Shown here piece after piece: positions 6,566 to 59,747 of a DNA stretch of 64,000 bases; within the stretch, counting starts at the first letter, position 1, and every line of letters begins with the position of its first letter. The translations under genes and the position numbers were made by a program. A model generated the notes under the pieces. It did no database searches, was not told where the DNA came from, and saw nothing but the letters and a program-made list of their open reading frames with translations. The DNA comes from Deroplatys truncata (Eukaryota > Arthropoda > Insecta > Mantodea > Mantidae): assembly GCA_030765065.1 (NCBI GenBank), contig CM060985.1:173498096-173562095 (forward strand). The letters run 5' to 3'.

Positions 6566-6569
6566 ATCA

Positions 6570-35373: not shown

Positions 35374-36346
35374 GAGGCAGTATTTTAACACTTAAATAAT
35401 TTCAGTATAATTATATAATATGTAAATTCAGTAACAGCCCGCCTTAAAGCAATATGTGTATTTAACAATATATAAAAAGTGTATATTACAGTCATTGTAT
35501 ATGTTTATATTATTGTATCCATGTATAATAATGTTATGCGAATATATTACATAATTTAATAATATAGGAGCTGTGAGAATAATAGGTTAAAAGTTGCTAA
35601 CAATGAGGTAACCTTGAGGCAATAATGAGTTACAAAGTTTAAATGTTACTTGTGATTCTTGGAAGCATTAATGTAATTTTAGTGACAGTTTATAAAAATA
35701 GCCAATCAACAACCAGAAAAAGCTTTAGTTAAATGAATGTATTCTATTGGATTAGGAATAGCCAATCACAGACTTGAAATACAGAAATTTACAAGTTTAG
35801 GTGGTTGAAATCGATTCAGTTGCCTGCAGACAGTGTTTGTAACTGGATGCGAGATGCGTCCTCAAGAGATTTAATACATATTCGTGTGAGACGAAAATAG
35901 TTTGTGTTATAAAGTGTAATTAATTAATAAAAGGAATCTCACAGCTCTCTATCAGTGAAGTGTTATATAAATCGTATCAAGCATTAATAAAAGGAGTGAA
36001 GTAAAATTATAATCTGTGTAAGCCTACATTCTTAGTTGCACTACAACCCTGCCAAGACATCCATGTCTCTAAAATAAATACTGACGCAGCCGAGACAAAC
36101 ATAAATATATAATATTTAAAGAAACAGTCAAATTACAAAGTTAATGTTTTTTTAAACTTGGGGCAAAGGCCACCTGAAAGTACATTTGGGGCGAAGGCTA
36201 CCGGAAACTGTTTACTATACGTGCAGTTGCAACTACTGCAAGTTCAGCTCCCCAACAGTTGAAATACAATACAACTCCTTCAATACAAACTACTTCAAAT
36301 TGGCTTTCCATACATGGGGCGGAAACAATTATGTACTCCTACTAAA
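35374..36346 (+). mobile_element. LTR-like element family L, copy A, 5-bp duplication TGTTT
   Basis: 973 bp starting GAGGCAGTATTTTAACACTT and ending ATGTACTCCTACTAAA. Flanked by TGTTT at 35369-35373 and 36347-36351. The flanking LINE frame closes exactly when the element is removed (SLF followed by NKNLIYCGIKIYNKLP), which proves the insertion. Contains two CCAAT boxes (AGCCAATCAACAAC, AGCCAATCACAGAC), a TTCAGTTGCC initiator-like site and AATAAA-type signals. No protein frame. Confidence 0.85.
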
Positions 36347-36617
36347 TGTTTAATAAGAATTTAATCTACTGTGGCATTAAAATATATAATAAGTTACCCA
36401 CTAAGCTTAAACACACCACCTCAGAAGCCATATTTAAGCACCAAATAAATTGGTGTTATTAGAAGATTGTTTCTACTCCATTGATAAATTTATGAAATAT
36501 TTTAGATAAATGCTTACTTTATATTATAATTATTGTGTACATAAATCTTTATCACCTTGCATATTGAAATATTGCTGTTTAATTTTATGCATAAACTGAC
36601 ATCAAGTAATACAGGGT

Positions 36618-37708
36618 GAGGCAGTATTTTAATGCCTAAATGATATTAATTGTATTTTTTATTAATTAAATTCAATAACAGCCCACCTTGAAAAACAGTA
36701 TGTATATAGTTATTATATAAATTGTATGTAAAGTCATTGTAAATACTTATTTTATTGTAAGCGTATTTATTAGTGATATGTAAATGTTTATATACTCTAA
36801 TAGTGCAAAAACTGTGAGAATACTATGTTTTAGAATGTTAATAATGAGGTAATAATGCAATTTTGGTGACAATAATGTGTCTGGAGTTTTAAAAAAATAC
36901 TGATTATGAAAAAATTGGTAATAACGTAATTTCGCTTAAAGTTTGGAATTAGCCAATCAAAAGTAAAGAAAGATTTTTAGTTTGAATACTTACATTCTAT
37001 TGGACTAGAATTTAGCCAATAAGAGAATGGCATTACCAAAGCTAAAGGTTTTTACTGTTGAATCTAGTCAGTCTCGGGCAAGATATTAGACAGAGCAGAC
37101 GTGAAAGTCGTGGGCAAGATGTAGTAGACAGCAGACATAAGAGTCGCGGACATGAAGCTGTAGAGAGTAGACGTGAAAGTCGTGGGTAAAAATGTTGTAA
37201 AGTATAAAATGATAACATTTGTGTTTTCCGCCAAAAATGTATTAAGTGCTCACAGTTTTATTTTATAAAGTGTTGTGTTTATAAAATGTGCAAATATAAA
37301 GTGAAATAAAAAGAAGTAAAAATTAAAAAGTAAATTGTGTGGCGTCTTATAATTTGTGTCTTATCACAACCCCACAAGAACTCGTGTTTCTATAGCGCAA
37401 CTGAAAGCAGCCAAGGCAAATAACTATAATAATATTACGTAAAAACAAGCATCATCTTCACTATAAAGTTTTTTGGCGTCCTAAAAATCAAACAACATCA
37501 AAGTGTGTCTTCATTACATAGCCTTAATAATATTTACGTAACCATAAAACTACCGCAAATTGACGCAAAACGTTGGGCTTACAAGAAACATCTCACATCA
37601 AAAACATCGCTAAATTGCCTTCTTCAAATTGGCATACAACTGTGGGGCAAAGTCCTCCAAATAATTACGCAATCTACTATCTAAAAACTGAAGAACAATA
37701 CTTCTTCA
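36618..37708 (+). mobile_element. LTR-like element family L, copy B, 5-bp duplication AGGGT
   Basis: 1091 bp starting GAGGCAGTATTTTAATGCCT and ending GAACAATACTTCTTCA, flanked by AGGGT at 36613-36617 and 37709-37713. CCAAT boxes lie at about 36953 and 37014, GTCAGTCTCGGGC at about 37068, TATAAAATG at about 37204 and GTGAAATAAAAAG at about 37300. Inserted in the 3' UTR of the LINE. Confidence 0.88.
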
Positions 37709-37884
37709 AGGGTGAAATAAACTTATAAAGTAGCATATATTTGTGGTATTTACATTGCAAATAAAATATATGTGTTGAATCTTCTGGGAATAGCTTGTGA
37801 AGTTCACTTCATTCTGAAGGAATTTTGTATAACTGATAAATCAAGAGAGATAGACAAAATCTTACTGAACAAAAAATATACAGT

Positions 37885-38290
37885 AGTTTTCCTACAACCC
37901 ATTCATAATTATATTTCTCCATAAATGCTATCCTCTGCATCTTCATCTGTTAGTCCTCTAGATGCCATGCTTCTTCAGACCCCATTCTAACACCATTCTT
38001 ACTATTCTATTGTTTCCCATTCTTTTCAAGTGGTCAAACCATTTTAATCTTCTCTCTTCTGTTATTTCCAATACTTCTTTTTTACATCCATTATTTCTCA
38101 AATTTTTGTATTTCTGCTTTTATCCCTTTTTGGGATTTAAGAAGCCCTCTGCCAAAAATCCATCTCTGTTGTTAATAATTTTCTTTCTTGTTGCCTATTC
38201 TTTGCCCATGTTTCTGCTCCATAGAGAAACATACTTTGTGCTATTGAATTGTAAAGATCTTTTTGCTTTTATTTAAAATGTTTCTGCTCC
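37885..38290 (-). pseudogene. RTE-type LINE C-terminal remnant
   Basis: The minus strand reads SIAQSMFLYGAETWAKNRQQ, then TTEMDFWQRAS, then EERRLKWFDHLKRMGNNRIV and MVLEWG. These are the ordered landmarks after the RT domain in RTE-like elements (LLYGAETW, EM.FWRR, R..W.GH..RM). Several stops interrupt it. Confidence 0.8.
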
Positions 38291-38295
38291 AAATC

Positions 38296-38370
38296 AAATT
38301 AAATTGAGTTTTATTTATGGACGTTCTTTAAGTACTGTGGTCCTTAGCATCCCATTACATATTGGTCATC
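38296..38370 (-). mobile_element. SINE (family S), 3' fragment only
   Basis: TTAAATTGAGTTTTATTTAT, GGACGTTCTTTAAG and GTGGTCCTTAGCATCCCATT match the family tail. The copy stops at ATTGGTCAT and the tRNA part is missing. Confidence 0.8.
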
Positions 38371-38421
38371 ATGGAGCTGATTACGAGCACAGGACTCGAC
38401 TTCTGGTTCACTTATGATTCA

Positions 38422-38676
38422 TCTTCGTCACGGTGTTAAAGTGTTTACCTCCAAGATGACCTTTGAGTCAGGGGAACATGTGAAAATCACTTGGGAAAAG
38501 TTCTGGTGAATACTGAGGATACGAGAAAACTTCCCAGTTGAAACTTCTGAACTCCGACTGGGTCAAGATTCAACTTGGAAGTTTTCTCGCATCCTCCATA
38601 TTCACTGGAGCTTGCCCCAAGTGATTTTCACATGTTCCTCCAACTCAAAGGTAAGTACTTTTAACACTGATGAAGA
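38422..38676. repeat. Long imperfect palindrome, ~110-120-bp arms, 26-bp loop
   Basis: Left arm 38422-38542 and right arm 38569-38676 are reverse complements with some mismatches and a small gap; matching pieces include CATGTGAAAATCACTTGG / CCAAGTGATTTTCACATG. An outer phrase (GAGCACAGGACTCGACTTCT, then GAGCACAGGACCCGACC) occurs on both sides in direct orientation. A foldback element or an inverted duplication. Confidence 0.85.
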
Positions 38677-39013
38677 CATATCAGTGAACAGCTGGTTGAG
38701 AGCACAGGACCCGACCTGGTACAACACTGGCTTGGAAAAACATGTTGACTATATAGAAACGTAACAGAAGGATTGTACGATATAAATAATTCAATAATAT
38801 ATAATTCAACATGATCAATTGTGTGTAATGTTGTTTATAAAATAGGGAAACTTACTTATTGCATGTCCCTCATACATTCAAATGCTCTGTTGGTATACAT
38901 ATCACCTAAAAGCATCAAAACAGAGATGACTTGAGAACTTGCATGGTCTACTAGTCCCTTTAAAACTAATGGTATTATAAAATTTTGCACACTTAATGGA
39001 GGATTAAGAGATT

Positions 39014-39150
39014 TTAATCAAAATGATTAGAGCAGAGCCACTAAAAATGGAATTTTCCACACAAATGGGTATTTCCAGTGAAATCGTAGTATTGAAATGC
39101 TAAATACAATGTTTAGGGCATTGGAGATGAGGAGTAGAAAAAGTGAAAAA
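39014..39150 (+). mobile_element. MITE-A 3' fragment abutting exon 3
   Basis: TTTTAATCAAAATGATTAGA, TATTTCCAGTGAAATCGTAG and GGAGTAGAAAAAGTGAAAAA are diverged MITE-A landmarks with the microsatellite region deleted. The fragment ends 18 bp before the exon 3 acceptor, so part of the branch-point region may be transposon-derived (inference). Confidence 0.65.
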
Positions 39151-39168
39151 CAAATGTTTGTTTTGCAG

Positions 39169-39256
39169 ATGGGAAACTGGGCAGGCTGCCTGGAGGGAGG
39201 AACAAAGACAAGAACGCAAACAGGAGATACAGAATCTTCGGAGCAAGCTGTTCATG
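39169..39256 (+). CDS. Host gene exon 3: basic coiled-coil segment
   Basis: Acceptor TTGTTTTGCAG|A and donor TTCATG|GTAAGC, entering in phase 2 and leaving in phase 0. After the shared Arg it reads WETGQAAWREEQRQERKQEI then QNLRSKLFM, a highly charged helix with coiled-coil-like spacing. The VKSRWETG join with exon 2 resembles Xin-type and EPLIN-type actin-contact motifs (family resemblance, inference). Good consensus splice sites and an open frame support it despite the short length. Confidence 0.8.
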
Positions 39257-39900
39257 GTAAGCATTTCAAACACTAATTGTAGAAATGCCTTTTAAGATTT
39301 ATGTAGTGCTAAATAAATTGCATATGGCCATAGCCATTTTCCTGCAAATATTCATACATTAAACTATCATTATTTTATCTCACTTTCAGTAATAAGTAAT
39401 TTACATAATCGGTGCATGCCAATTTTTATCCACTAACCATTTCCATTTCGTCTTAACATTCCATAAACTTTCTCCTTAACTAAGTTTGATCATTATGCAT
39501 TTTTTGTATAACACACTATATATTTCTGTTGTTCCTATGCGATTTCTCTCTGTTTTCCTCCATCCATAATTTCCTTTACATCCCATCAAAATATGGACCC
39601 CATTTTCTCTATCCCCACAAATTGGACATGTATCTTGCAAAATTTTACTCCTAAGACCTTATAATTTCCATACTCTCAATTGAAATCAAGCAATGCCATC
39701 TCTCTCCTTGTTGCAAATGTATATACTTCTCTCTCTGAATCAATTTGATTTAGTTGGTAAAAAAAGTAAGGTCGCTTAACATACATCTCAAGATGCATTT
39801 CCAAAATCGTGGTAGCTTTCTGTATCTTTGTAACATTATATCACCTAAACCATTGTTTTGCACTCGGCCAGTTACCAGATCTCAGAAGTTTTATCTTGAT
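39257..39900. other. No recognisable feature
   Basis: First part of the 13.3-kb intron between exons 3 and 4; pyrimidine-rich, without recognised repeats. Confidence 0.35.
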
Positions 39901-39904
39901 AGTA

Positions 39905-40135
39905 AATTTAAATTGAGTTTTAAAGACCGGAAATTTGGTGAGGCCTCTTTATTAGGCTTGAGGTTCTTTTATGTGCCGTAAACCTATGATACAGGACCAC
40001 CGGCTGTACTTACCTTCCAAAGTAAACCATGCTAAGGATTTTTGCATCCAAAAAAATCCATCACCCTCCACCAGGTTTGAAGCCGCAACCTTGGGAACTA
40101 GAGGGTAGCATGATACCGCTAGATCACGAAGTACG
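39905..40135 (-). mobile_element. SINE (family S), diverged
   Basis: Tail-side AAATTGAGTTTTAAAG is joined to GAGGCCTCTTTATTAGGCTT, then AACCATGCTAAGGATTTTTG and a worn B box (AGGTTTGAAGCCGC). About 60 bp of the body is deleted compared with the copy at 23815. Confidence 0.8.
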
Positions 40136-40205
40136 ATATATCTTGATACTAAGACGACATTTTAAAATACCACCTTCTGACATTTGACTCACTCGCTATT
40201 AACAC

Positions 40206-40232
40206 TTAATAATAATAATAATAATAATAATA
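40206..40232. repeat. (AAT)n microsatellite
   Basis: About nine AAT units in intronic DNA. Confidence 0.95.
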
Positions 40233-40849
40233 CAGTTGAACCTCACTTATACATTATTCACTTCTACTTTTTTGCAGATGTGTTCAATTTTTTAGGCACT
40301 GAACTTTTCCATTAATATTTAGCTCATTTATATCTTCTCATTAATATGTCGCAGTTTTCAGATCCCCATGTATGAAATATATTAATTTACTTACTCATTT
40401 ATACATTATGTTTGTGCTGTGTTAAGATATATTATGCATAGTTTCTGTGTACTGTATCCTTGCTGTCACAGTATAAAACAGTAGGCATGTGGACGAGGCA
40501 TTGGTATTTTCAGAACACATTATTACTATGCATGTGTTAACAATACAATCAGGCAGTCATTCTTTCCCAGATTTTGTCTGATGATACTGATGAGGACGGT
40601 GATAAAGAAGTAGGCCTAAATAAGAAAGTGTTCCCAGTGTGCATGCGACAGTTCAAGCTCTAGAAATTACATGATAATTTCTATCATTGCAAAGCCTAAG
40701 TGATGATAGCATTTCTGTAATTACTGCATATAATCGACTAGTGTGTAACTGTGTGGAAAAATCGAAGAAGCTAAGAAAAATTGCCTTTTTTTTTAACCAG
40801 CATAAAGCACCAGTACTACTTTTTTTTTCTTTTTCTTTCTTTTCTTTTT

Positions 40850-41325
40850 ACTTTTACTTTATTATGTGTAGTAAGTAGGGGAAGCATTGGATTCCACCCA
40901 AAAATGTTTGCTACCAGACTTCACCAGAAATACATGTTTTGTTGTGCCCTGAATCCAAATAAAGCATTTTTGAAAACATGTGTGTCTGTCTGTACAGCAT
41001 AACTCAAAAACGTAAAGCCAAATAAATACCAAACTTGGTATTTTGGTTCAGTATCTTCCAAAGATGTGACATGAAGATTTTTAACAAAATCCCCCCCAAC
41101 CCAAACTAAACTTTACATGGAACATTTTTTGAAATTTTTTATTTTCTAAAAAGTGACTAATGATTTTGATTAAAGTACCGTATATTAAAGATATTTACAT
41201 GACAAATAAAATATAAATCTTGAATTTTCGGGAAATAATCTATGAAGTCCTCTTCATTCGAAGAGAATTTTGTATAATCTTGTATAACTGGTAAACATTA
41301 AGTGATAGGTGAAAATGTTGTGGCA
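40850..41325 (-). mobile_element. MITE-A, 3' part truncated
   Basis: Starts TTTACTTTATTATGTGTAGT and GGGGAAGCATTGGATTCCAC, continues through ATGTGACATGAAGATTTTTA and ATAACTGGTAAACATTAAGT, and ends at about 41325. Confidence 0.75.
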
Positions 41326-42058
41326 GAATTATTAAAGTGGTCTGCTCTTCGATTGAAGATGATGACAAATCTTATAGTTGTAAGATTTTGTGAGAAATTA
41401 ATATAAGTTCGTGGGAAATACCTAATAATGTTAAGTAATGAATAATGAGATCTCCAGAATCCTCAGGGCGTGTTACGAGGAAGATTTATCTTCTTTGATA
41501 CATTATCAAGAATGAAATGAATTCAACTTTCCATAAATTAAACTTTTTCTTATTTATTTTCCTTTCTTTTACATTTCACGTGCTGCTTTACTATTTGAAA
41601 CCTCTCTTAGCATGCTACAATGTAATATCAAGAACCAAGTCTTAACGTCGATAAATATTACTACTAACTTTAAGGTACTGATGGGATACACAACCGTACT
41701 GTATGAGTACTAATGAGATACTGAACTTGCTACTGAGGAGAAGAAAATTATTTGTAGTTCCATGACAACATTCATTATTCTAATTCTTCACTTTTTGGTA
41801 TACTGTCCTTGCACAGAGTTTTTCACATATAATTTTTAACCACAGTTTGCCATGATTGCTACTAAAATAAATAAATTCAATTTCCAAATACAAACATAGG
41901 TTAACATAAAACAAATCCACAATATCTCAATAAATATAAAATAATGATCATGATAATGACATCAAGAACATGCAAATATCGCAATACATACATAAATGTA
42001 CCATCAAATGAAACCAATTGTGTATTTTCCATATATTAGCTTAAACAGGTAAGTTAAA
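41326..42058. other. No recognisable feature
   Basis: Intronic AT-rich DNA left of the second Tc1 element; no repeat was recognised. Confidence 0.35.
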
Positions 42059-42060
42059 TA

Positions 42061-43101
42061 CACTATGTGATCAAAAGTATCCGGACACCTGGCTGGAAAT
42101 GACGTACAAGTTCGTGGCGCCCTTCAACGGTACTGCTGGAAGTCAATATGGTGTTGGCCCACCCTTATCCTTGATGACAGCGTTCACTCTCGCAGGCATA
42201 CTTTCAATCAGGTGCTGGAAGGTTTCTTGGGGAACGGCAGCCCATTCTTCATGGAGTGCGGAACTGAGGAGAGGTATCGATGTCGGTTGGTGAGGCCTGG
42301 CACGAAGTCGGCGTTCCAAAACATCCCAAAGGTGTTTTATAGGATTCAAGTCAGGACTCTGTGCAGGCCAGTCCATTACAGGGATGTTATTGTCGTGTAA
42401 CCACTCCATCAGAGCCCATGCAGTATGAACAGGTGCTCGATCGTGTTGAAAGATGCAATCGCCATCCCTGAATTGCTCTTCAACAGTGGGAAGCAAGAAG
42501 GTGCTTAAAATATCAATGTAGGTTTGCGCTTTGATCGTGCCATGCAAAACAACAAGGGATGCAAGCCCCCTCCAAGAAAAACACGACCACACCATAACAC
42601 CACCACCTCTGAATTTCATTGTTGGCACTACACACGCTGGCAGATGACATTCACCAGGCATTCGCCATACCCACACCCAGCCATCGGATCGCCACATTGT
42701 GTACCGTGATTCGTCACTCCACACAACATTTTGCCACTGTTCAATCGTGTAATGTTGACGCTCCTTACACCAAGCGAGGCGTCGTTTGGCATTTTCCTGC
42801 GTGATGTGTGGCTTATGAGCAGCCGCTCGACCATGGAATCCAAGGTTTCTCACCTCATGCCTAACTGGCATAGTACTTGGAGTGGATCCTGATGCAGTTT
42901 GGAATTCCTAGTGACACCCAATCACCTGACCATGTTTGAAGTCTGTGAGTTCCACGGAGCATCCCATTCCGCTGTTTCACGATGTCTAATGACTACTGAG
43001 GCCGTGGATAATGAGTACCAGGCAGTAGGTGGCAGCACAATGCACCTAAGATAAAAAACGTATGTTTGTGGGCGTGTCTGGATACTTTTGATCAAACAGT
43101 G
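42061..43101 (-). mobile_element. Tc1-like element, copy 2, complete ends, TA target duplication
   Basis: 1041 bp. The left end CACTATGTGATCAAAAGTAT and right end ATACTTTTGATCAAACAGTG are inverted repeats flanked by TA on both sides. Compared with copy 1 about 200 bp of the transposase N-terminal region is deleted: CACTAGGAATTCC joins what in copy 1 lies at about 4028 and 4226. The missing part is the helix-turn-helix domain that binds the ends. Confidence 0.92.
42143..42871 (-). pseudogene. Tc1 transposase catalytic half, Glu-to-Lys at the DD34E site
   Basis: A single open frame of 242 codons: VRNLGFHGRAAAHKPHITQE, VVWSDESRYTMW (first Asp), GGGVMVWSCFSWRGL, DCIFQHDRAPVHTAW (second Asp) and SPDLNPIKHLWDVLERRL. 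Tc1 enzymes have Glu in SPDLNPIE; here the codon is AAA (Lys), so the catalytic triad is broken even though the frame is open. The DNA-binding N-terminus is also lost. The long open frame suggests a recent loss of function. Confidence 0.92.
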
Positions 43102-43109
43102 TATGTTTT

Positions 43110-43590
43110 ATGTTTGATTTTCTAAAAAAAATGGCTCTGATGGTTTTACTTAAAATATTATTTATTAAAGATATTTATGACAGGAAATATATATATCTTG
43201 AATTTTCTGGGAATAGCCTTTGAAGTCAACTTCATTCAGAAGAACATTTTTATAATCTTATATAACTGATAAATGTTAAGTGATGGATGAAAACATACTA
43301 CACAAAGAATATAGGTCTCTTTAAAATGCACAATTTATTTCAAACACCTTTTTTTGTGGCATCAGCTATTTCTGAGATATCCATTATTAATGGTTCGAAT
43401 TGTTCAATACTTAATCATTCCTTTAAAGTCCTGTCAATTTTCAATTGTTTCTCGTGGTTTCGTGGAAACAGTATGAAATTTTAAGGTCAGCATATAGAGT
43501 CCAGTTCTTAAACATTTGACCGTCACTATTCCCTTTGTATCTGTAACAAAATGTGTAATGTGTAATGTAATGTGTATATGTTGAATTTTC
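43110..43590 (-). mobile_element. MITE-A, 3' half
   Basis: TTTTCTAAAAAAAATGGCTC, GAATTTTCTGGGAATAGCCT, AGGTCAGCATATAGAGTCCA and AACAAAATGTGTAATG follow the family order in minus orientation. The start is missing. Confidence 0.7.
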
Positions 43591-43919
43591 TGTGAACTCA
43601 TCTGCATTCTTATTGGAGTTTATACATGTGAGAAACCTTGAAATACAAACAGACTCACTTCAGAAAAAATTGTAGAATCATTCAAATATGCAACTTGTGT
43701 TAAATAGCTTTTTCATAGCATTAGCCATTTCATACACATTTGAGTATTGTAAGCAAAACACTTACAAAAGGTTATATTTTCATCAACTCTAAGAGCATGC
43801 AGTATCACGGTTTACATTATCAACTAGCTTTTGGGTCTAGGGATTACAAAACAAGTGTCTGTTTGTGTTGAAATGTTGATTTTGGGTGTATTACATGCTT
43901 CTCTACCCATTACAGTACT

Positions 43920-45322
43920 AGGGCCCAGATTTTTAGGTTTTAATCTATATTTTTCCTCGCTATTTAATTAACACATTTCAAGATATATATTCGTTTCACA
44001 TTTCCTGGAGCAGAATATGCGAATTTCGTTATACCTAAAAAAACCTAAATGAGGGGTTGACACCCAAAATAAGCTAAATAGCTGTTTTTCCTTTATCGAA
44101 ATGAAGAATGTTATTTTCGGATTGAAGCTCATTGTAAAATTATTTCCACCACTTATAGCCAGTAGATAGTTGATGTTACTACAGTTACGCAGCACATGTG
44201 ACGTGGTGACACCTGGATGCAGTTGATAGAAGGTCAGAAGGAGCGTAACCTGCATAACGGGATCGCCTCCAATCCTTCACCAAGAGTACTTTTCTAAAGT
44301 ACTTGTAATTGTCGTATAGTGAAACAATGCCTAAATCATATTTATTGAAAAAGTGGATTGCTGTGGGTCCATTCTTCACTGTTTTTAGTGACAGGCTGTC
44401 TATATGTTGAAGGCCGGGCGGAGGTTCTGCAGTCCTTCCACCCGACCATGCTACATGTTGCATGACTGGCCCACGGCCTGCACCGCCTTGCGGAGGAGAT
44501 TAGAAGCCACTTCGATGATGTGAACAGTCTGATATCTTCGGTTAAGGAGGTTTTCTTTAAAGCTCCAACACATATACAATTGTTCAAAGAGAAATTACCA
44601 GCAACCCCTCTTTCACCGGAGCCGATACTTACCCACTGGGGTACTTGGCTGTCTGCTGCAATTTACTATGCCGAGCACTTAAAAGATGTTAAGAATGTTA
44701 TCAATGAATTGGATGAAACACAAGCTTCCATTGCCAAGGCTAAGAAATCACTCAAGTGCCCCACACTTGCTGCTTCCCTTGTGTATATTAAGACACCTTT
44801 TTGGTTTATACCAGGAGCTATTATCTGGTTGGAAAGTACAACTTTGCCACTGAAAGATGCTCTAGATATCATTGGCAATGTTTTCAGTAAAGAAATACCT
44901 GGACCAGTGGGAGTTGCATGTTCTTCCAAGTTGGAGAAGATTCTTCAACGAAATCCTGGTTTTGAAGATGTGAAACTCATTAATTCAGTATTGCAGAAAG
45001 AAAAGTATACAGGAAAACTACCCCTAGAACCTGCTGCACTGGCATCTATGTTCTATGCTCCAATGACGTAATGTTACATGATAATAGAAAATTGTTTACG
45101 TCAGAAAATGTGGGAATGTATGTAACTATCTACTGCAATGTCAAAAAATAAATCATACAACTAAGTACCAGAAAAGCAAAATTATGGATACCTGTATAGA
45201 TCAATGTAGCAAAACATAAAAAAAAACTATTATAATCAAGAAAAGCTACAAAAAAAACTATTTTAAGCATATAAGAAACCTAAAATGAAGGTTTATTCCA
45301 CCTAAAAATCCGGTCCCTAGTA
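43920..45322 (+). mobile_element. hAT-superfamily element with a decayed transposase
   Basis: The left end TAGGGCCCAGATTTTTAGGT and right end ACCTAAAAATCCGGTCCCTA are inverted repeats of about 20 bp with a hAT-type TAGGG start. The flanking 8 bp do not match, so the target duplication is lost or the boundary is a few bases off. It carries the coding region at 44380-45143. Confidence 0.7.
44380..45143 (+). pseudogene. hAT-type (CGGBP1-associated group) transposase C-terminal half
   Basis: Readable from about 44395: EVLQSFHPTMLHVA, a stop where Cys is expected, then LAHGLHRLAEEIRSHFDDVN. From 44520 it is an open frame of 183 codons with SVKEVFFKAPTHIQLFKEKL, PEPILTHWGTWLSAAIYYAE and PAALASMFYAPMT. 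This follows the RNase-H-like hAT proteins found beside CGGBP1-like genes in arthropods (LTRWGTW and K.APL motifs). After MFYAPMT a deletion and frame change remove the VERSFS-type dimerisation block, while the far end (NRKLFTSENVGMYVTIYCNV) survives in another frame. The N-terminal half is absent. Confidence 0.7.
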
Positions 45323-45549
45323 ATAACTTGGCTTCCAGATGGGAATGTAGGTCAGTAGAAGTAAAGGGGCAGAATGTAATATGATGGATTAAGCAAACCA
45401 TTTGTCTGTAGCTATTTGTTTACAAGAGAGCTTGTTTTAAAAGCCTAAAACAGATTACTAAGTACTGTAAAGTAGGAATATTTATTTTATAATTTTTTTC
45501 ATAAAACCATATGGTAAGCTTTGCCTTAGATGTTACTGTATCAACATTA

Positions 45550-46990: not shown

Positions 46991-47221
46991 GTTTTTTGTT
47001 TTTAATGCAAGTTGCATAGTTTTTCAGGGAAGTCACAAAAAGCAATTTTGTCATTTTATATGCTTGTTCTGTGAGAAAATATGAGTTTAAATTCATTTAA
47101 TAATTTGTTAAATATAGCAAAGTTGATCTCATGCTGATCATTTCAAGTGAAACCAAATTGTGATTGTGTGAAATACATTTCATTGACATTTCACATAAAG
47201 AAGGTAAGATTATGTAGCTGT

Positions 47222-48561: not shown

Positions 48562-48567
48562 TAAAAA

Positions 48568-48628
<61 letters not shown>
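48562..48628. repeat. (ATT)n microsatellite, about 22 units
   Basis: A pure ATT/TTA run directly upstream of the 5-bp duplication of LTR-like copy C. Confidence 0.97.
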
Positions 48629-48629
<1 letters not shown>

Positions 48630-48640
48630 ATGCTCCACAC

Positions 48641-49721
48641 TGAAGAAGTATTTTGTTCTTCAATTTGCAGTTTGTATTTTTGGTTACGTAAATATTATTA
48701 TGTATATTTGAAAAAGTGTGCTGTTATGTAATTATTTAGCTGCATGCTTTGGGAGCCAATTTGCGATAGTTTATAGGTTACGTAGTTGTTTGGAGGAGTT
48801 TGCCCCACAGTTGTACGCCACTTTGAGAATGTTATTGAGCCTCGTATTTATTGCCAACTTTGAAAAAGTTATTTAGCTGGATATGAGATGTGAGAATCCC
48901 CATGTATGTGCGTCACTTTGAAAATGTATTTAGGTTATGTAATGAAGATACACTTTGATGTTGTTTGATGCTTGGGACGCCAAACTTTATAGTAAAGATG
49001 ATGCTTGTTTTACGTAATATTATTAAAGTTATTTGTCTCGGCTGCTTTCAGTCACACTATAGAAACACAAGTTCTTTTAAGGTTGTGATAAGACAAGAAT
49101 TAAAAGACGTCACAGAATTTACTTTTTAATTTCACTTCTTTTTATTTCTCTTTATATTTGCACATTTATAAAACACAACACTTTATAAAAGAAAACTGTG
49201 AGCACTTTATACATTCTAGCGGAGAACACAATTTTTACCATCCGTACTCTACAACATCTTACCCGCGACTGACTAAATTCAGTGGTAAAAATCTTATAGC
49301 TTCGGTAATGCCAGTCTCTTATTGGCTAATTCTAGTCCAATAGAATTTAAGTATTCAAATTAAAACTTTTCTTTACTGTTGATTGGCTAATTCCAAACTG
49401 TAAGCGAAATTAAGTTATTACGGATCTTTTCATAACCAGTATTTTTTTTAAATTCCAGACACATTATTGTCACCAAAATTACATTATTACCTCATTATTA
49501 ACATCCTAAAACATATTATTCTCACAGTTTTTGCACTATTAAAGTATATAAACATTTACATATCACTAATAAATACGTTTACAATAAAAAATAAGTATTT
49601 GCAATGACTTACATACAATTTACATAATAATTATATACATATTGTTTTCAAGGTGGGCTGTTATTGAATTTAATTATAATAAAACACAATTAATATCATT
49701 TAGGCATTCAAATACTGCCTC
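48641..49721 (-). mobile_element. LTR-like element family L, copy C
   Basis: Minus-strand start GAGGCAGTATTTGAATGCC and end GAACAAAATACTTCTTCA, 1081 bp. Flanks are CACAC (48636-48640) and AACAC (49722-49726), a 4/5 match to a 5-bp duplication. CCAAT boxes, the TCAGT-type site and AATAAA signals sit at the same places as in copy B. Confidence 0.82.
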
Positions 49722-49726
49722 AACAC

Positions 49727-50260
49727 GTAACAATGAAAATCTGCAGGGGCAGATTCAGAGTCTGCATTCTTAACCTTATAACTCCAGTCTTGGTGCGAAA
49801 ACCTTTTTATTCTTTGAACAGGTTCAAAATATTGCTCTACATATATGTTGAATCATCGTAAGTACATAATGCATTACTGCCCCTATTTAGTGATATTGCT
49901 GAAACTTTTCAGCTCCATAACTCAAGATGTGAGTGTGAAAATCTCATATGTCAGTATGTAGGGGTTGCATTGTGTTCAGTTTGATTGCGGTTCTCGAGGA
50001 TGGGAGTTGCATAGTATTAGCTGCAGTTGTTGTTAGAATAAGTCTAAACATGTAGCCATGCCTTGCTAGTGCTGGATTATTGGTGAACATGAATGTGTTC
50101 TAAGTATGGAATGGTATTGTCAAGGAGAAATATATGTACAATTAGCACTGGAACAGAGTCATCTTTTTGTCAAATTTTACATCATCCTGTACATTCTGAG
50201 TTTGTGGATTCATTTGAATTGTATAACATACAAATAAGTGAGTTTAGGAACACAGTAGTA
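49727..50260. other. No recognisable feature
   Basis: Intronic DNA between an LTR-like element and a MITE-A copy. The only link is the ~45-bp phrase at 50198-50243 shared with 47763-47808. Confidence 0.35.
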
Positions 50261-50265
50261 GTTTT

Positions 50266-51833
50266 TGAAAAATCTTATCTGTTACATTCACATGACTTTC
50301 TCTACCTCTATTGCTTATTTGTGAGCTTATCCACCTATTTCATGTTAATCAAAATAAACCTTTAGAGAAATAGCTACAATGCACATGTCATTATAAATAC
50401 AAAGGGAACAGTGATAGTCAAATTTTGAAGAACTATATGCTGGCCTTAAAATTCCACAAAATTTCATGACATTGCGAGAAACAACTGAATGTTGACAGGA
50501 CTTAAAGAGAATGGCCAAGTAATGAACAATTCAAACCATTACTAATGGATATCTTAGAAATGGCTTATGCCACAAAAAAACTTATTTGAAATAAATTGTG
50601 TATTTTAAAAAGTTTGCATTTTTGGTGTACTGCGTTTTGTCTGTCACTTAAAGTTTATTATTATACAAGATTATACAAAATTCCTTTCGAATGAAGAGTA
50701 CTTCACAGACTATTCCCAGAAAATACAAGATATACATTTTATTTGTCATGTAAATATTTATAATATATGGTAATTCAATTAAAATCATTAGAGCCATTAA
50801 TTTTAGAAAATCCAAAATTTCAAAAAAATGTCCCATGTAAAGATAGTTGATAGTTTGGAGTGGGGAATTTCTTGAAAATCTGTGTCTCGCATCTTTGGAA
50901 GGTACTCAACCCGAACATCAAGTTTGGTATTTATCTGACTTTTCAGTTTTGAGTTAAGGCTGGTTCACAACCAACGAGAACGGTAACCAGAATGAGAACA
51001 AGAAAGTTGAAATACATGTATTCAAATAGGAGTGTTCACAATCGACGGGAAGCTTTCCCGGGCCACGGGAACGGGAAAGAAGAGTTGCCCAACTTTTAAC
51101 TTTCTCATTCCCGGGCACGGCATATTAGATCCATATTGTGCATATTAGACCCTTCACTGTAGAGGTTATTCTAGGTGGCCGTGACATGAAACAGCCACTA
51201 GTGCTCTCTTTAGTCGCAAGCTGAAACATGAAACTGGAAGAAATTAGTAGTAAGTGTGCTTCCTAAGCTCATTCCGAAACCCACAAATCTAATCAGCGTT
51301 GGTTCCTCTGGTGAAAGGGTCATTTGTAGTTTGTTTATATGCCGTTCAAAACTGGCTATTACCTAAAAAAAATGGCAAAAGCTACAAAGAACAGCTAAAA
51401 CCGGTGCAAATGAAACAAGAACAATAAACGATTTTAATGTATGCCATTAAATAAAGGAATGAAAGCTTGGCATAAGTAGAGGGATAGGAAATGTAATGGA
51501 TATGCATTTAGATAATGTTTACTCTATCGAATTTTGACGTTGGCTTGGCTAAATTGGCAGTAGGTGAAAAAATATCATTGGTCAGTTAAAAACAAATGAA
51601 ATCCCAATGCGCAAAATTGACTTTCACTTTGTGATCGATGTGCATTTCCGTTCTCGGGCGGTTGTGAACCAGCCTTTATGCTGTTCACACATACATACAC
51701 ACACAATGTGCATGCTTTTGTTTTTATTTATTGAGGGAACCTCAAACATGTATTTCCAATGAAATTCAGTATTGAATTTTTGGGTGGCATGCCATACCTT
51801 CTCTACCTATTATGTATGTGGTAGAAAGAGTAA
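50266..51833 (+). mobile_element. MITE-A copy split by Harbinger MITE
   Basis: The first part starts ATCTTATCTGTTACATTCAC and runs to CAGTTTTGAGTTA. The second part, TGCTGTTCACACATACATAC, completes the standard GAGTTATGCTGTTCACA phrase and runs to GTGGTAGAAAGAGTAAAA. The break holds the element at 50957-51675. Confidence 0.85.
50957..51675 (+). mobile_element. Harbinger MITE (family H), intact copy, TTA target duplication
   Basis: 719 bp with termini AGGCTGGTTCACAACCAACG and the inverted GGCGGTTGTGAACCAGCCT, flanked by TTA at 50954-50956 and 51676-51678. The host phrase GAGTTATGC is restored when the element is removed. A 3-bp TTA duplication is the PIF/Harbinger hallmark. Non-coding. Copies 1 (31859) and 3 (56611) match over their full length apart from nested insertions. 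Confidence 0.93.
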
Positions 51834-51839
51834 AAATGA

Positions 51840-52410
51840 TATGAGTATTGAAGAATTTAAACCAATAATAATATATATCTCAGAAATGGCTGATGCCGTG
51901 AAAAAAATTGTGGTAAATTTGTGTGTTTTAAAGAGGTCTACGTTTTTTGTATAGTATATTTTTGTCTATCTCTTTACCTTTACCAGTTCTGCAAGAGTAT
52001 ACAAAATTCCTTGCAAATGAAGTGGACTTCACAGGGTATTTCCACAAAATTCAAGATATGCATTTAATTTGTCATTTAATGTCTTAAATATATGGTATTT
52101 TAATCAAAATTGTTTGAGCCATTTTTGAGAAAATCATGAATTTAAAGAATCTTCCATGTAAGGGATGGTTTTGGTTGTGGGAGGGGGGGATTTAATGAAA
52201 ATCATTGTGTGCCATCTTTAGAGGATGCTGAACTTAAATACCAAGTTTTGTGTTATGCTCTTCAAAGACACTGACTTTTTTCCAAACATTCTTCTGTTTT
52301 TTTATTCAGGGGGCCTCAAAACATGTATATCTAGTGAAATCTTGGTAGCAAATTTCTGGGTGGAATACAATACTTCCTCTGACTACTATGTACATGGTGT
52401 AGAAAGTAAA
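51840..52410 (+). mobile_element. MITE-A, 5'-truncated copy next to the previous one
   Basis: Begins within the family interior (GAGTATTGAAGAATTTAAAC) and continues through ATTTGTCATTTAATGTCTTA and GGGGGATTTAATGAAAATCA to GTGGAATACAATACTTCCTC and TGTAGAAAGTAAAA. The microsatellite is lost. Confidence 0.75.
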
Positions 52411-52587
52411 AACACAAGTTTTGAATAATTTTATGAACTTCTTTTCCAGCAATTGGTGTATGGCATGATTGCAATTATTTGCATCCACTGTCCACCTTAA
52501 TCCCAGAGTAATTTAAAATGTTATGAAAATTTGTTATAATCAGAAACTGCAGAATTGGAAATGAGTTACAACAAATTAATTTTGTAG

Positions 52588-52801
52588 GGTAAACAAGGGA
52601 AAATGAAGGAGATGTATGAACAGGCCGTAAAAGAGAGCGAGGGCTGCACACAGAAGAAAGAAGTAGGAATTCGATGTGAGAAGGCTAAGACCATAAAGGA
52701 GAAGTTTGAACGTGGGGAGGTGTTGCCAGACGACGACGAAGCTGGTGTACCTCGCGAGGAAAAGAAGGGAGTGAATGAGGACATGAGTGTTTTTGAAGCA
52801 G
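52588..52801 (+). CDS. Host gene exon 4: charged helical segment
   Basis: Acceptor TAATTTTGTAG|GGT and donor GAAGCAG|GTGAGT, phase 0 to phase 1, 214 nt. Reads GKQGKMKEMYEQAVKESEGC, TQKKEVGIRCEKAKTIKEKF, ERGEVLPDDDEAGVPREEKK and GVNEDMSVFEAG. The AKTIKEKFERGEV stretch is close in form to the short MFEKGE-type motif of EPLIN and to Xin-like repeats (from memory). Lys/Glu-rich helices fit a cytoskeletal scaffold. Frame and splice phases match exons 3 and 5. Confidence 0.85.
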
Positions 52802-53082
52802 GTGAGTGCATGCTAAGAGCAGTGGAAAGCAAGTCATCTCTCTGAGCTATAAAGCCACCAGAATGAAACAGCATGGCAGCTTCTGGTTTGCATTATACTA
52901 ATTTTATTCCAAAACTCATTTTCATTTTTTGGGCACATCTGCCATACTTGCCAACTTTTACAGTTTGCCCATAAAATGTATGGGAGCAGAGGCACTTTTA
53001 CAGCTTTGTGGGCAGATTCAAACTGTTATGAACGTAACAAAGCATTATATTGTAACTTAAGATTACAGACTGAGTAGTACAC

Positions 53083-53300
53083 AGTGCTATGACAGGCCAG
53101 AGCTTATCTGTATGTGTATCCTTCATCACAATCATGGTTCCCCTCACTGGGCTAGCATGTGGATTTAAAACTTAATTGCAGCACTAGTGAACACTCAATA
53201 CTATGTCTATGTGAATTGAAAAGTCAACTTCCTCATGTAACTTGTTTAGCTTTTTCATGCTCTATGGTTATGGGATACAAGTTTCCCATTTTTGTGACAG
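53083..53300 (+). repeat. Isolated single unit of the 119-bp satellite with its tail
   Basis: CACAGTGCTATGACAGGCCA, GAGCTTATCTGTATGTGTAT and CCTTCATCACAATCATGG match the 5' array. It then continues in GTGGATTTAAAACTTAATTG, GCACTAGTGAACACTC and CTTCCTCATGTAACTTGTTT, as at 1656-1860. Confidence 0.8.
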
Positions 53301-53361
53301 TTTTTGTTTAAAAATTTGATGTTTTGAAGTGTAAAATACTGATTAGAAATCTATGTACAGC

Positions 53362-54406
53362 TGAAGTAGTTGTGCCCCACGTGTGGAAGCCAACTTAAAG
53401 TTGTTGTTTTGTTTACGTAAATTATTTAGCTTCATGCTTGGGAAGCTAACTTGAAGAAGTATTGTTCTTGGAGTTACTTAGTTTAAGAAGTTTGCAACAC
53501 GCTTTGGGCGTCGGTTTGAATTGTTGATCACGTAATAGTTACTGTTGTTACGCAATATGCTGCTATGTACGAGAAGCTGATTTTAAGATGTAATTTTGTT
53601 GTTACACTCCAAGTTTTACACTATAATATTTAACTTTGTTATTAAAACTGCTTCTGTATTATTTATGTTTGAATTTGCCTCGGCTGTGTCAGTAATGTTT
53701 GTAGAGTCTTGTATCTCTTAGGCAGGGTGCGGTACGACAATAATTGTAGACATACACAGAATTTAAGTTTTTAAATTCACTTCTTTTATTAATCCTTGAA
53801 CATTTTTATAAAGCACTACACTTTTTAAGAACTGTGAGATTCTTTAATACTTTCACTTAGCCAACGTGTAGACATATTTTACGATTCACACGTAATACTT
53901 CTGTAGAGAACACATCTTCCATCTGGTCACTACCAAGGTTTGCCAGCAACTGAACATTATTTCAACCGTTAAACCTGTAAGCTTTGGTATTTCAAGTCTC
54001 TGATTGGCTAATTCTAGTCCAGTAGAATATCTGCATTTTACTTAAACTTTTTCCTTGCTATTGATTGGCTAATTTTAAAACTGTTACTGAATTTACATTA
54101 TCTTTGCTATAATCATGACTAGTAACTTTCACTCTCAAATTCATTATTGTTACAAGGTTACCTCATTATTACCTCATTGTTAGCAACTTAAAACTTATTA
54201 TTCTCACAGCTCTTGCATTATTAAAGTATGTAATGTATTCGCATAACATTATTAAACATGTTTACAATAATAATAAAGCATATGCAATGACTGTTACATA
54301 CATTTAAAAATAATTATTACATATATATTGTTTCAAGGCGTGCTGTTATTGAATTTACTTATTATAAAATACAATAGAAATTATTCAGGCATTAAAATAC
54401 TGCCTC
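53362..54406 (-). mobile_element. LTR-like element family L, copy D, 5-bp duplication
   Basis: 1045 bp. Minus-strand start GAGGCAGTATTTTAATGCCT and end GCACAACTACTTCA, flanked by ACAGC at 53357-53361 and 54407-54411 (GCTGT on the element strand). It holds the same CCAAT boxes (AGCCAATCAATAGC, AGCCAATCAGAGAC on the element strand) as copy E. Confidence 0.88.
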
Positions 54407-54411
54407 ACAGC

Positions 54412-55704
54412 CTAGGAAGTGGTGTTCTTTGTTTTTATACATGTACCAGCAAGAATTTCAGTTGTGACTGTATAGAAGGCTGGTGTTGCATTCACCAAGA
54501 GGCATAAACAAGGAAAAGAGAGTGAGCTACTCGTTTAAAGAGTAGTTTTTTCTTACTGGAAAATCTACTTTACATGAAAACTAAAGTACTAACTCTAAGT
54601 CATTGGACATGATTACAGTGATGCTTCAGTGAACAACTTATCCAGAGAGCATTGAACAGCAGCCTTTGTGTTGTTTATCAGGTACTTCTGAATGGTTTGT
54701 CCCTACATTTAGCTTTAGATTGCACTTCCGCAATAGCCTTGCATTTCTTTGGAGGCATTTCCATTTATTACACAAGATACTTAAAGAATTAATTAAAACT
54801 CTCAGGACAGTAATATAATGATGGTTTCTTGTGAATGCAGCTTAGTGACTTGTACGTCACATTCGGGTACCTCATCATTATTGTAGAGAAAATCTTGGTT
54901 GGGAACAAATAATAGTAGTTTAAATAAAACCAATATAAGCTTGCTTATTCTCAGTAACCATCATACATAAAACTACTAACAAAACACAAGAAAGACAAAA
55001 CATAGGAAAGGCCAAAATTAATAGCAGCAGAAGAAACAAACTTGCTGCATTCAAAAAAATGAACTATAAATTATAATAAATGAATATCCGAACACCTTGA
55101 CTGTGTTATTACACCATAACAACAACAACAACAACTACTTTGTTGCAGTCAATAGACTCTTACAAGTGCATCTGACACTGTCAATTATAGCTATAGAATA
55201 CAATTTACTTAACAATATTTACATATGTACATATATCCATAATAATTCAGTAATAGCATTTCTCTATCAGGAATGATTAATACAGTTGACTTAATAATAT
55301 TTACATAAGTATACATATCCATTATAATTCACTAATATTATACAAGCATTTCTCTATCAGGAATAATTTTAGGACAGTCTATGATCACTGCCAGAGACAA
55401 AATCAATGAATAATATGCAAACACCTGTTCCTTTATTATTTTATGAAGCCATGAAAGTCATAAGTATTGTGATTATCGTTGAGAAAGACACAGATGGTCT
55501 TGCGAGCTTTTGTAGACATAACATAAAATTAAATAATTAATCTTGTAAAATGGGGCAGAATTTCTAATTTTAAGCTAAACAGTAATTTTCCCTTGTGTCA
55601 AAGGTTATCTGTGCTAACTTTGATTGAAATTGGTGCTGCGGTATAGAAGCCTATAAGAAACATACACGCACATGCACACATACAGTGACTTCTATATATT
55701 TTTG
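54412..55704. other. Intronic DNA with a ~95-bp imperfect tandem duplication
   Basis: 55195-55280 and 55285-55370 share TTTACATA..TACATAT.TCCAT and GCATTTCTCTATCAGGAAT. The rest shows no recognised feature. Confidence 0.5.
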
Positions 55705-55990
55705 GGGTGCCAGGGTAGTGCAGTGATTTTGTCTCCTGCTCTTATAGTAACGGTCCAGGATTCGATTCCTGAGTCTGGGGTAGGAATTTTAAGTCAGCCC
55801 TATCCACGCCTTCACCTCTGACTTGCTCACGTGAAGTATCCCCAAGGCACCAAACTGTAAGTCTTCTCATTCCACCACCATCCTCGCCATCAGAGGCAAC
55901 AGATTCTGCTCACGGGTGTCTCCATCTCAGAAATGGGTCCAGTCATCCCTTGATGAAATGAGGTATCCCCTGAAGGTCATATAGGGAGCA
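55705..55990 (+). mobile_element. Second tRNA-derived SINE-like element
   Basis: The head GTGCCAGGGTAGTGCAGTGA followed by B box GGATTCGATTCC has tRNA spacing. The body (CTTGCTCACGTGAAGTATCC, CCCCAAGGCACCAAACTG, CATCCCTTGATGAAATGAGG) is unrelated to family S. Single copy here; the class is inferred from the Pol III boxes. Confidence 0.45.
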
Positions 55991-56610
55991 TTAGAAGTGA
56001 CAACTTTTATATATTTCGTACAGGATAAAGTCGTGTCATCAGTGAGGAGGAACATCGCCACAGAAAGACGGAAATCTCTGCTTTGTGTGACTCATGTTTA
56101 CAGACAGGCAAAATATAAACAATGCTTGCTATCATTATGGGAAAAAACAGTTTTACGTTCTGTAGTGTGTGAAATTCAGTGCACATAAAAAATTTCATAT
56201 TTTGAAATATTTTTGGAAAAATCTCCACATTTCTGCATATTTTGTAAGATTTATAATTTTTTTGCCTGTAAAATAGTTTATTTTAGCAATGAACTGGGCT
56301 TTTCGATATTCTATTTGGGCAGGTTTCTGTGAAACACATTTAGAAAAACCTGCATCAGTGTTTGCAAAAGTCAGGTACATTTGAGAAAAGTGGCATTTCC
56401 TCTAAGTGATGTTGCATGCGGAATAAAATGCCCTCTATTATTTTCATAACCCAGTGCTTTTAGTGGCATATTATAATAAAATTAGTATTAAGCAAGGACA
56501 AAGCAGCCAATAGCTTCTGTTTCTTTGTTTGTAAGTTTAAAGAGTTTCACAATGATAAATATCTATAAACTCCTTGTGGTTTATTGTATTTCATTTGATA
56601 TCTTATTATA
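55991..56610. other. No recognisable feature
   Basis: A 63-codon plus frame at 55997 begins near an acceptor-like TTTCGTACAG but has no matching donor. Otherwise AT-rich. Confidence 0.3.
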
Positions 56611-57165
56611 AGGCAGCTTCATGACTACTGAGAACGGTAACCAGAGCGAGAACAACGAAGTTTAAAGTTGACAAGCTCTCCTGGACCACAGTAATGGGAA
56701 AGAAGACTTGGCCAAGTTTTAACTTTCTTGTTCTTATTCCCGTGCATGGTACATTAGGTCCATGTTGTGCATATTCGACTCTTTGGTGTAGGCGTTATTC
56801 AGGCGGGCATGACATGAAATAGCCACTAAAGCTCTCGCTAATTGGAAGCTGGAAACGTGAAACATGAAACGGGAAGGTATTCTAGCATATGTGCTTCCTA
56901 ACCTCATCCTGTCACCTGCAGATCCATTGAGCGTTCATTCTTCTAATGAAAGGGCCATCTGTAGTTTGCTTATATGCAATTCAGAACTGCCTATTGAGGC
57001 AGTATTTTAATACCTGAATAATTTCAATTGTATTTTACAATAAGTAAATTCAATAACAGCCCGCCTTGAAACAATATGTATGTAATAATTATTTGAATTG
57101 TATGTAACAGTCATTGCATATGCTTATTTTTATTGTAAGCATGTTTTATTAATGTTATGTGAATA

Positions 57166-58540
57166 CAGTAAAATCTCGTTAGTACGTTTTTGCGGGGACC
57201 CAAGGATTTGGACGTCATAGACGGGAAAACGTGTTAACGAAAATACATAATCTGCAACTTAAGAACATATTTATGTAATAAAATCTAATAATACATCTTA
57301 CCTCAAAAACGGATGTGAAATATACACTATTTAAATTGGTTTGAAATACATATCGATAGTTGATTGCTTTGTTGGTTTTAATGCCAAAATTTTACTGTCC
57401 AACTTGTTTAGTAAAGTCATTACATCATCATCAACTTTGAAACTGCACACATATCGCTTCACTATGTCCATTGCCTGCATGGCTTCTGACACTGTAGGTA
57501 CTGGCTCAGGATCTGGTTCATCGTCACTTTTGTCTCCCACTAATGCTTCATCTTTCACTTGTTCTTCAAGTATTTCATCTATCGTCGCTGTTTCACACAC
57601 TGGAATTTCATTGTCAATGTTTACATAGTTTTCGAAAGACACGCCGGCATCGTCTGCTATTTGGCGCCATTCTTCACTCTCGGAAAACTCGTCTTCCTGC
57701 GTAATTTCATCACCAAGAACTCGGCAAAAACCGGCTTTATTAAAGCAGTTCCTAATGGTATCTTGCATCACACAATCCCAAGCAGTTCTAATAAAATGCA
57801 TGGCATCTAAGACGGTGATTTTTCTTGTCGTCGATTTCAGTGCAGCCAACCTTCTCTGTACCAGCCTCTTACGATACGCATGTTTCATGCACCGAATTAT
57901 GCCTTGATCTAAAGGTTGTAGCTTACTCGTGCAGTTTGCTGGGAAGAAAATGATCTTTATGTTTCTTAAATTTGAAACAGTTGGTGGATGAGCAGCACAC
58001 TGATCAATAAACAGTGCAATTTGCCGCACTTTCTTTTTCTCCATTGCGAACAAAAAGTTAAAATACTTTTACGTTTCGTCAACACTCAACAGCATAAACT
58101 AACCACACCAAGCCACTGTTAAACTAAAGCGTCACCGCAGAACACTAAAGAACGTCACTAAAGCATCCCCCCCCACACACACACACAAAACGCGTCCCAC
58201 AAATACGTACATGCATGGTATTGGCTGCCGGTTTCACCCCGCCTGGTTTGACCAAAGTAGCGAATGAGAACGTCTAACTTTGAATGTAGTAAATCTACTC
58301 CCGCTGGACCGTTACTTTTATGTTCTCAAAAATGACTATTAATACCGACCGACCAAGCATTGGCATTGGCCAAAATAGCGAATGAGGGCATCAAACTTCG
58401 AACGTAGTAAGCGGGAGCGAGAAAACGTACTAAACGAACGTTATTAATGCATTTGATGCATTTTGTGCCGGGACGTTTATAATTCAACGCAATACACGGG
58501 AAAACGTGTTAATGAGGAACGTGCTAACGAGATTCCACTG
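57166..58540 (-). mobile_element. pogo/Tigger element, TA target duplication
   Basis: 1375 bp with ends CAGTAAAATCTCGTTAGTAC and the inverted GTGCTAACGAGATTCCACTG, flanked by TA. Subterminal AAAACGTGTTAACGAA / GGGAAAACGTGTTAATGAGG repeats are present near both ends. Too short for a complete element (about 2-2.5 kb), and the 5' half of the gene is missing. Confidence 0.92.
57331..58053 (-). pseudogene. Tigger-type transposase, C-terminal half of the DDE domain
   Basis: An open frame of 240 codons. The visible blocks are RQIALFIDQCAAHPPT (second catalytic Asp), NIKIIFFPANCTSKLQPLDQ (third Asp in LQPLDQG), a GIIRCMKHAYRKRLVQRRL helix and an acidic Glu/Asp-rich linker (DDEPDPEPVPTVSEAMQAMD), ending in STIDMYFKPI. 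The CENP-B-like DNA-binding domain and first Asp are absent; upstream of about 58053 the DNA is non-coding, so a large internal deletion removed them. The remaining frame has no stop or shift, so the insertion is fairly young or this part is under constraint. Confidence 0.88.
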
Positions 58541-59747
58541 TACATTGTATACTTTAATAATGCAAGAGCTGTGAGAATAATAAGTTTTAAGTAGCTAACA
58601 ATGAGGTAATAATGAGGTAACCTTGTAGCAATAATGAGTTAGAGTGTTAGAAAAGTTACCAGTCATGATTATATCAAAGATAAGGTAAATTCAGTAACAG
58701 TTTAAACTTAGCCAATCAATAGCAAGGAAAAAGTTTAAGTAAAATGCAGATATTCTATTGGACTAGAATTAGCCAATCAGAGATTTGAAATACTGAAGCT
58801 TATAGGTTTAACCGTTGAAAGTTGCTGGCAAGCCTTGGTAGTGAACAGATGTAAGATGTGTTCTGTATGTGTGAATTGTAAAATATGTATACGTGCTAAG
58901 TGAAAGTATTGAAGATTTTCACAGTTCTTAAAAAGTGTAGTGCTTTATAAAAATGTGCAAGAATTAATAACAGAAGTGAATTTAAAAAAGTTAAATTCTG
59001 TGATGTCTACAATCACTGTCACACTCATCCTAACTAAGATATACGTGACTCTACAAACAAGACTGATGCAGCCGAGGTAAAATTCAAACATAAATAATAT
59101 ATAGAAGCAGTGTTAATAACAAAGTTAAATATTATAGCGTAAAACTTGGAGAGTAATAACAAAAACACGTCTTGAAATCAGCTTCTCATACGTAGCAGCA
59201 TATTGCGTAATAACAGTAACTATTACATAATCAACAAATTCAAACCGATGCCCAAAGCGTGTTCTAGGAACTCCTTAAATGCAACTAAATAAAAATATTA
59301 CGTAAAATACAATTACGTAAGCATATATCTTCTTCAAGTTAAATATATTATGTAAGCACATAACTTCTTCAAGTTGGCTCCCATACGTGGGACAGTTAAA
59401 ATTATGTAACCAAACAAAACAAAACAAAAGCAGCACAAAAATATCATCTTTAAGTTTTAAAAAAATATAACGTGAAGCAAATAACTATCTTACCTATTAC
59501 CTAAAAAACCAGTAAAAACTGGTAGAAATTAACAACAAACAACTTTAAAGTGTGCTATTAAATAAAGGAATGAAAGCTTGGTACACCTACAGGAATCGGA
59601 AATGTAATGAACCTGCACTTAGATAATGTTTACTCTATTGTATTTTGATGTTGGCTGAATTGGAAGGAGGTGAAAAATATCATTGGTCAGTTAAAAATAA
59701 ATGAAATTCCAATGCTCAAAATTGAGTTTCCACTTTGCGATCAATAT

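Follow-up and report, generated by a model that had tools for sequence, protein, structure and literature searches.

We describe five homologous copies of a dispersed repeat (A to E) in a 64,000-nucleotide stretch of contig CM060985.1 of the mantis Deroplatys truncata, the whole of which is called the window here. Their sequence makes it very probable that each copy is a solo long terminal repeat (LTR), with the structure U3-R-U5, of an LTR retrotransposon. An earlier note on this DNA had located A at 35374-36346 (+), B at 36618-37708 (+), C at 48641-49721 (-), D at 53362-54406 (-) and E at 56996-59493 (+), and comparisons with blastn within the window confirmed all five places. The preferred boundaries add one base to each copy (TGAGGCAG...CTTCA; Table 1), and copies A to D, leaving out E, are 974-1092 bp long. 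Copy E measures 2498 bp by the earlier ends because a pogo-like DNA transposon sits inside it. No sixth copy was found in the window by nhmmer, which returned three further, weak matches (E 3.9, 5.6 and 8.6). All five copies are gathered in 22 kb of the 64-kb window, a weak and post hoc observation with a probability of 0.048 under random placement.

Aligned after removal of the pogo-like insert from E, the copies form three lineages: B with C, D with E, and A. Over the first 500 alignment columns, identity is 90.8% between B and C, 93.1% between D and E, 77.5% between A and D, and 73.6% between B and D. Identity is lower in the second part of the alignment (B-C 78.8%, D-E 82.6%, 47-61% between lineages), with large gaps. 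The three lineages suggest several related source elements, active at different times. Diverged internal repeats around CTTCTTCAAGTTGGC...CATACGTGGG are visible by eye in the 3′ third of the copies, for example at 59300-59493, and may be the reason for the strongest divergence being found there. Two pairings of copies as the LTRs of one element were rejected. A and B, which lie 270 bp apart on the same strand and could have bounded a small element, agree at only 65% of the first 500 alignment columns, and each has a separate duplication; C and D share 75.5% over the same columns, and their duplications differ.

Table 1. Positions in the window of the repeat copies, their motifs and the transposon inserted in copy E
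Feature	Position	Strand	Evidence
Copy A, probable solo LTR, apparently decayed 3′ end CTACTAAA	35373..36346	+	TGTT duplication 35369-35372 / 36347-36350; host frame continuous across empty site
Copy B, probable solo LTR TGAGGCAG...CTTCTTCA	36617..37708	+	AGGG duplication 36613-36616 / 37709-37712
Copy C, probable solo LTR	48641..49722	-	GTGT duplication, minus strand, 49723-49726 / 48637-48640; fifth base differs
Copy D, probable solo LTR	53362..54407	-	GCTG duplication, minus strand, 54408-54411 / 53358-53361
Copy E, probable solo LTR split by pogo-like transposon, within another repeat	56995..59493	+	CTAT duplication 56991-56994 / 59494-59497
Copy A initiator TCAGTT, GGATG at +28	35816..35849	+	motif
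Copy B initiator TCAGTC, AGACG at +28	37068..37101	+	motif
Copy C initiator TCAGTC, GGATG at +28	49239..49272	-	motif
Copy D initiator TCAGTT, AGATG at +28	53920..53953	-	motif
Copy A AATAAA, aligned site	35986..35991	+	alignment, motif
Copy B AATAAA, one column off A and D	37305..37310	+	alignment, motif
Copy C AATAAA, one column off A and D	49141..49146	-	alignment, motif
Copy D AATAAA, aligned site	53785..53790	-	alignment, motif
Pogo-like DNA transposon in copy E	57166..58540	-	CAGT...ACTG ends, each flanked by TA; Pfam matches to DDE_1 and the CENP-B dimerisation domain

Termini, target duplications and empty sites

All five copies begin, as had been claimed, with GAGGCAGTATTT, which has five exact matches in the window. 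With up to two mismatches it has 15, a set that includes the 3′ end of copy C, against a shuffle mean of 6.2 and a largest shuffled count of 14. The 3′ end previously given, CTTCTTCA or CTACTTCA, fits B, C and D, three of the five copies. A ends in CTACTAAA and E in CTATCTTAC, 3′ ends that we regard as decayed and that were placed so as to fit the duplication.

Perfect 4-bp target duplications flank every copy. At fixed ends, 0.6% of random placements give a matching 4-mer and 0.15% a matching 5-mer, and the latter figure rises to 3.3% if the end may shift within 10 bases, as it could for A and E. The 5-bp duplication originally proposed is perfect in four of the five copies and fails in C, which reads GTGTT/GTGTG. 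The choice between 4 and 5 bp decides whether the ends appear canonical. It had been pointed out that TG...CA ends emerge if the last T of each duplication is given to the element, leaving 4 bp; this is so for B, C and D, while A and E, which share the TG start found in all five, have no CA at the 3′ end.

Terminal inverted repeats, which the earlier note had denied, are present in B (10/13 bases), C (11/13) and more weakly D (7/9, 8/13); the denial stands for A (6/13) and E (4/13). The reverse complements of the 3′ ends are TGAAGAAGTATTGTTC in B, TGAAGAAGTATTTTGTTC in C and TGAAGTAGTTGTGC in D, compared with TGAGGCAGTATTT at the 5′ end, and each of the three agrees at 7/9 over the first 9 bases. 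Among 127,600 background positions on both strands of the window, 32, 10 and 1082 equal B, C and D respectively over 13 bases, and 166 reach 7/9. Among the 9,123 of these positions that begin with TG, the corresponding counts are 24, 10 and 461, and 112. The inverted repeats of B and C are not independent of each other, because the two copies are closely related.

These observations bear on a variant whose odds overlap with those of the interpretation given above, namely that the copies are LTRs with a true 5-bp duplication, the element being GAGGCAG...CTTCA with non-canonical ends. We consider this improbable. Beyond the perfect 5-bp match in four copies, it draws support from the base that follows the 4-bp duplication on the right, which is T in four of five cases (chance 0.043), as expected of a 5-bp duplication ending in T. 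When models are compared over the five copies, with the probability that a base has changed set at 10%, the fit is eight times better for a 5-bp model in which T is absolutely preferred in the target than for the 4-bp model, and five copies therefore do not close the matter of duplication length. If no target preference is allowed for, the 5-bp model is 31 times less likely than the 4-bp one at the same 10% setting. Further, the mismatch in C falls exactly at the fifth base, and a one-sided preference for T would be odd for a symmetric integrase. We favour 4 bp because the ends are then canonical and the short inverted repeat begins at the very T, with its partner A, that this reading gives to the element.

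Empty sites were said to be known for some of the copies; the site is verified for E and supported for A. The host repeat of E has two unoccupied paralogues in the window, at 51295-51457 and, reversed, at 32582-32445, each with a single CTATT at the junction. Copy A interrupts a LINE-like (long interspersed nuclear element) reading frame, which continues through the junction once one duplication is kept. The frame left of A resembles the open reading frame (ORF) at 6494-6976 in a two-sequence comparison (E 1e-6), and neither of these frames matched a LINE family in Pfam. At the sensitivity of the search used, the window contains no unoccupied DNA relative of A, B, C or D.

Promoter and polyadenylation motifs

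Each copy carries the paired CCAAT boxes reported for it, at bases 330/390 in A, 337/400 in B, 337/398 in C, 340/401 in D and 1718/1779 in E, where they lie beyond the insert. The initiator-like TCAGT site ascribed to every copy is present in A to D, each with one sense match to TCAKTY at base 444-455; in E it is lost at a 9-column alignment gap. A downstream promoter element, RGWYV, stands exactly at +28 in all four initiator-bearing copies, the one offset between +20 and +39 that the four have in common. The canonical spacing of this element is +28. Elsewhere in the window, RGWYV follows at +28 in 4 of 218 TCAKTY sites, and within the copies it does so at none of 12 antisense sites, two of which are too near an end to score. 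Since the copies are related, the presence of the initiator and downstream element in four of them points to conservation, not to four independent occurrences. No TATA box is conserved among the copies upstream of the initiator; TATAAG occurs in C only, at -28.

The AATAAA signal, likewise attributed to each copy, occupies an aligned site, within one column, in A to D, where E has AATAAC. A, C and E each contain AATAAA at further positions. The aligned signal is followed by a stretch that looks GT-rich by eye. As judged by motif, promoter and poly(A) signal share one strand, with the promoter upstream.

Probable solo LTRs and their possible parentage

The earlier note leaned towards solo LTRs, and this identification is well supported: small duplications match exactly, the ends are TG...CA with short inverted repeats, and a poly(A) signal follows the promoter. 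On this interpretation, an LTR retrotransposon would have inserted by means of its integrase, which would have recognised the short TG...CA inverted repeats, each insertion duplicating 4 bp of the target. The two LTRs would later have recombined with loss of the internal region, so that a single LTR remained, flanked by the duplications. The putative U3 would hold the paired CCAAT boxes and the promoter of initiator and downstream element. From the positions of the motifs, R would start near base 445-455, as set by the initiator promoter, and end where AATAAA and the GT-rich stretch mark it, with the remaining several hundred bases as U5.

The doubts first raised about this identification weaken, because the ends are canonical at 4 bp, three copies have an inverted repeat, and copies found only as solo LTRs are frequent in at least one family that has been well studied. 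In the human family HERV-K(HML-10), 63 of the 70 copies reported in PMC5142424 are solitary. At that rate five solo copies out of five have a probability of 0.59, and are not unusual, contrary to what had been suggested. PMC6563192 defines as solo those LTR retrotransposons without any protein domain, and its counts were for this reason not used as a ratio.

Several observations weigh on the other side. All 116 stop-to-stop ORFs of at least 72 amino acids in the window, including a tandem-repeat ORF at 7419-7904, were compared with Pfam, and no gag-pol, reverse transcriptase or integrase was among the matches, although a badly decayed gag-pol could escape such a search. The matches comprised DNA transposon domains and 12 weak, unrelated ones for ORF 7419-7904, which we take as low-complexity artefacts. 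No paired copies were seen within the window. A and E lack both CA and an inverted repeat at the 3′ end, and the inverted repeat of D is weak over 13 bases, being equalled at 461 of 9,123 TG positions. All five copies start with TGAGG, departing from the TGTNR termini that PMC2836005 describes for the vast majority of Gypsy elements, and their termini also differ from the common pattern TGTTRNR...YNYAACA. Nothing was found when the window was scanned for RNA and tRNA. Two degenerate patterns had 0 matches in viral-contig and genome-contig collections, which is expected for animal DNA there and says little about relatives outside the window, and a literature text search with the 12-base start matched unrelated subjects only.

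The absence of a gag-pol domain from the Pfam matches would suit a non-autonomous LTR element, TRIM-like (terminal-repeat retrotransposon in miniature) or of another sort, that has no coding family of its own and depends on a distant partner for the mobilisation of its LTRs. We think this unlikely, as LTRs of about 1 kb would be long for a miniature element; the other evidence fits such an element and the solo LTRs of a full-sized parent alike. Still less probable is a non-autonomous DNA transposon resembling a miniature inverted-repeat transposable element (MITE), whose inverted repeat, TGARGMAGTATTT, would be short and imperfect and whose duplication would measure 4-5 bp. The inverted repeat in three copies, the exact small duplications, and the fact that no coding region or internal partner for the copies was seen in the window would all agree with it, and Ginger DNA transposons, whose transposases resemble gypsy integrases, can have LTR-like ends and 4-bp duplications according to PMC2836005. 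The same source gives inverted repeats of 40-270 bp for Ginger1 and about 50-180 bp for Ginger2, against some 9-13 imperfect bases in three of five copies here. Moreover, an initiator and a downstream element, conserved and at the correct spacing, ahead of a conserved AATAAA are what an LTR needs, and would serve no evident purpose in a MITE. We give the least credence to self-contained promoter-and-terminator units of about 1 kb with LTR-like ends, multiplying singly by means of a borrowed integrase and not derived from gag-pol elements.

If the copies are solo LTRs, their parent was probably a Ty3/gypsy element, a placement that we offer as a lead and not as membership. LTR and duplication length point, again as a lead only, to the Osvaldo lineage. 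In the Culex families of PMC3286476, LTRs of 997-2055 bp characterise this lineage, and Table 1 of that paper lists 4-bp duplications in 17 of 20 Osvaldo rows. The likeness thus consists of an LTR of about 1-2 kb and a mostly 4-bp target duplication; the length of A to D falls close to this range, with A just below 997 bp, and is a weak guide. The duplication is not distinctive either, as all 7 Mdg1 and Mdg3 rows in PMC3286476 also have 4 bp, with LTRs of 263-444 bp, and this too counts against the assignment. Membership is not claimed because PMC3286476 left Copia and BEL unanalysed further and the ends here are not TGTNR. No internal region, primer-binding site or protein was seen here, and the likeness is one of length and duplication. 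An Osvaldo-type parent would use a tRNA-Lys primer.

Two known systems provide a wider comparison. PMC3601003 models the LTRs of animal Metaviridae and retroviruses with short inverted repeats, AATAAA, a GT-rich stretch and an optional initiator TCAKTY. The copies share with this model the TG...CA inverted repeats, AATAAA, GT-rich stretch and initiator, and differ from it in their terminal bases (generally TGTTRNR...YNYAACA) and in having no conserved TATA box. HERV-K(HML-10), as described in PMC5142424, is similarly mostly solitary (63/70 versus 5/5), and one of its proviral LTRs has an initiator and a downstream element, for which that paper gives the consensus RGWYVT. It differs as a human retrovirus family with the downstream element at +19 and a TATA box, and we claim no kinship in sequence. 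What the present copies add is an LTR family in which three lineages have kept a clean promoter of initiator and downstream element. This is useful for repeat annotation, and leaves views on how such elements work unchanged.

The insertion in copy E and neighbouring repeats

The pogo-like transposon in copy E contains a reverse-strand ORF with a stop-free stretch of 245 codons, which carries the DDE_1 and CENP-B dimerisation matches. A 119-bp tandem-repeat array occupies positions 1-1781, and a single diverged copy of its unit (69%) lies at 53055-53142, about 220 bp from copy D. Between these, a stop-free frame of 201 amino acids at 44466-45068 has no Pfam match at E 0.01. The same is true of an open, polar frame at 52588-52842, rich in lysine and glutamate, which looks like a host exon and may have a splice donor close to its end. 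Two Tc1-like transposase remnants are found at 4015-4623 and 42146-42907, with HTH_Tnp_Tc3_2 in both and DDE_3 in the second. Taken together, the transposons of the window suggest DNA of an insect or other arthropod. Pieces of a Mariner-type transposase lie on the minus strand at 26750-27523, comprising HTH_48 of Mos1 (27164-27523) and Transposase_1 (26750-27067).

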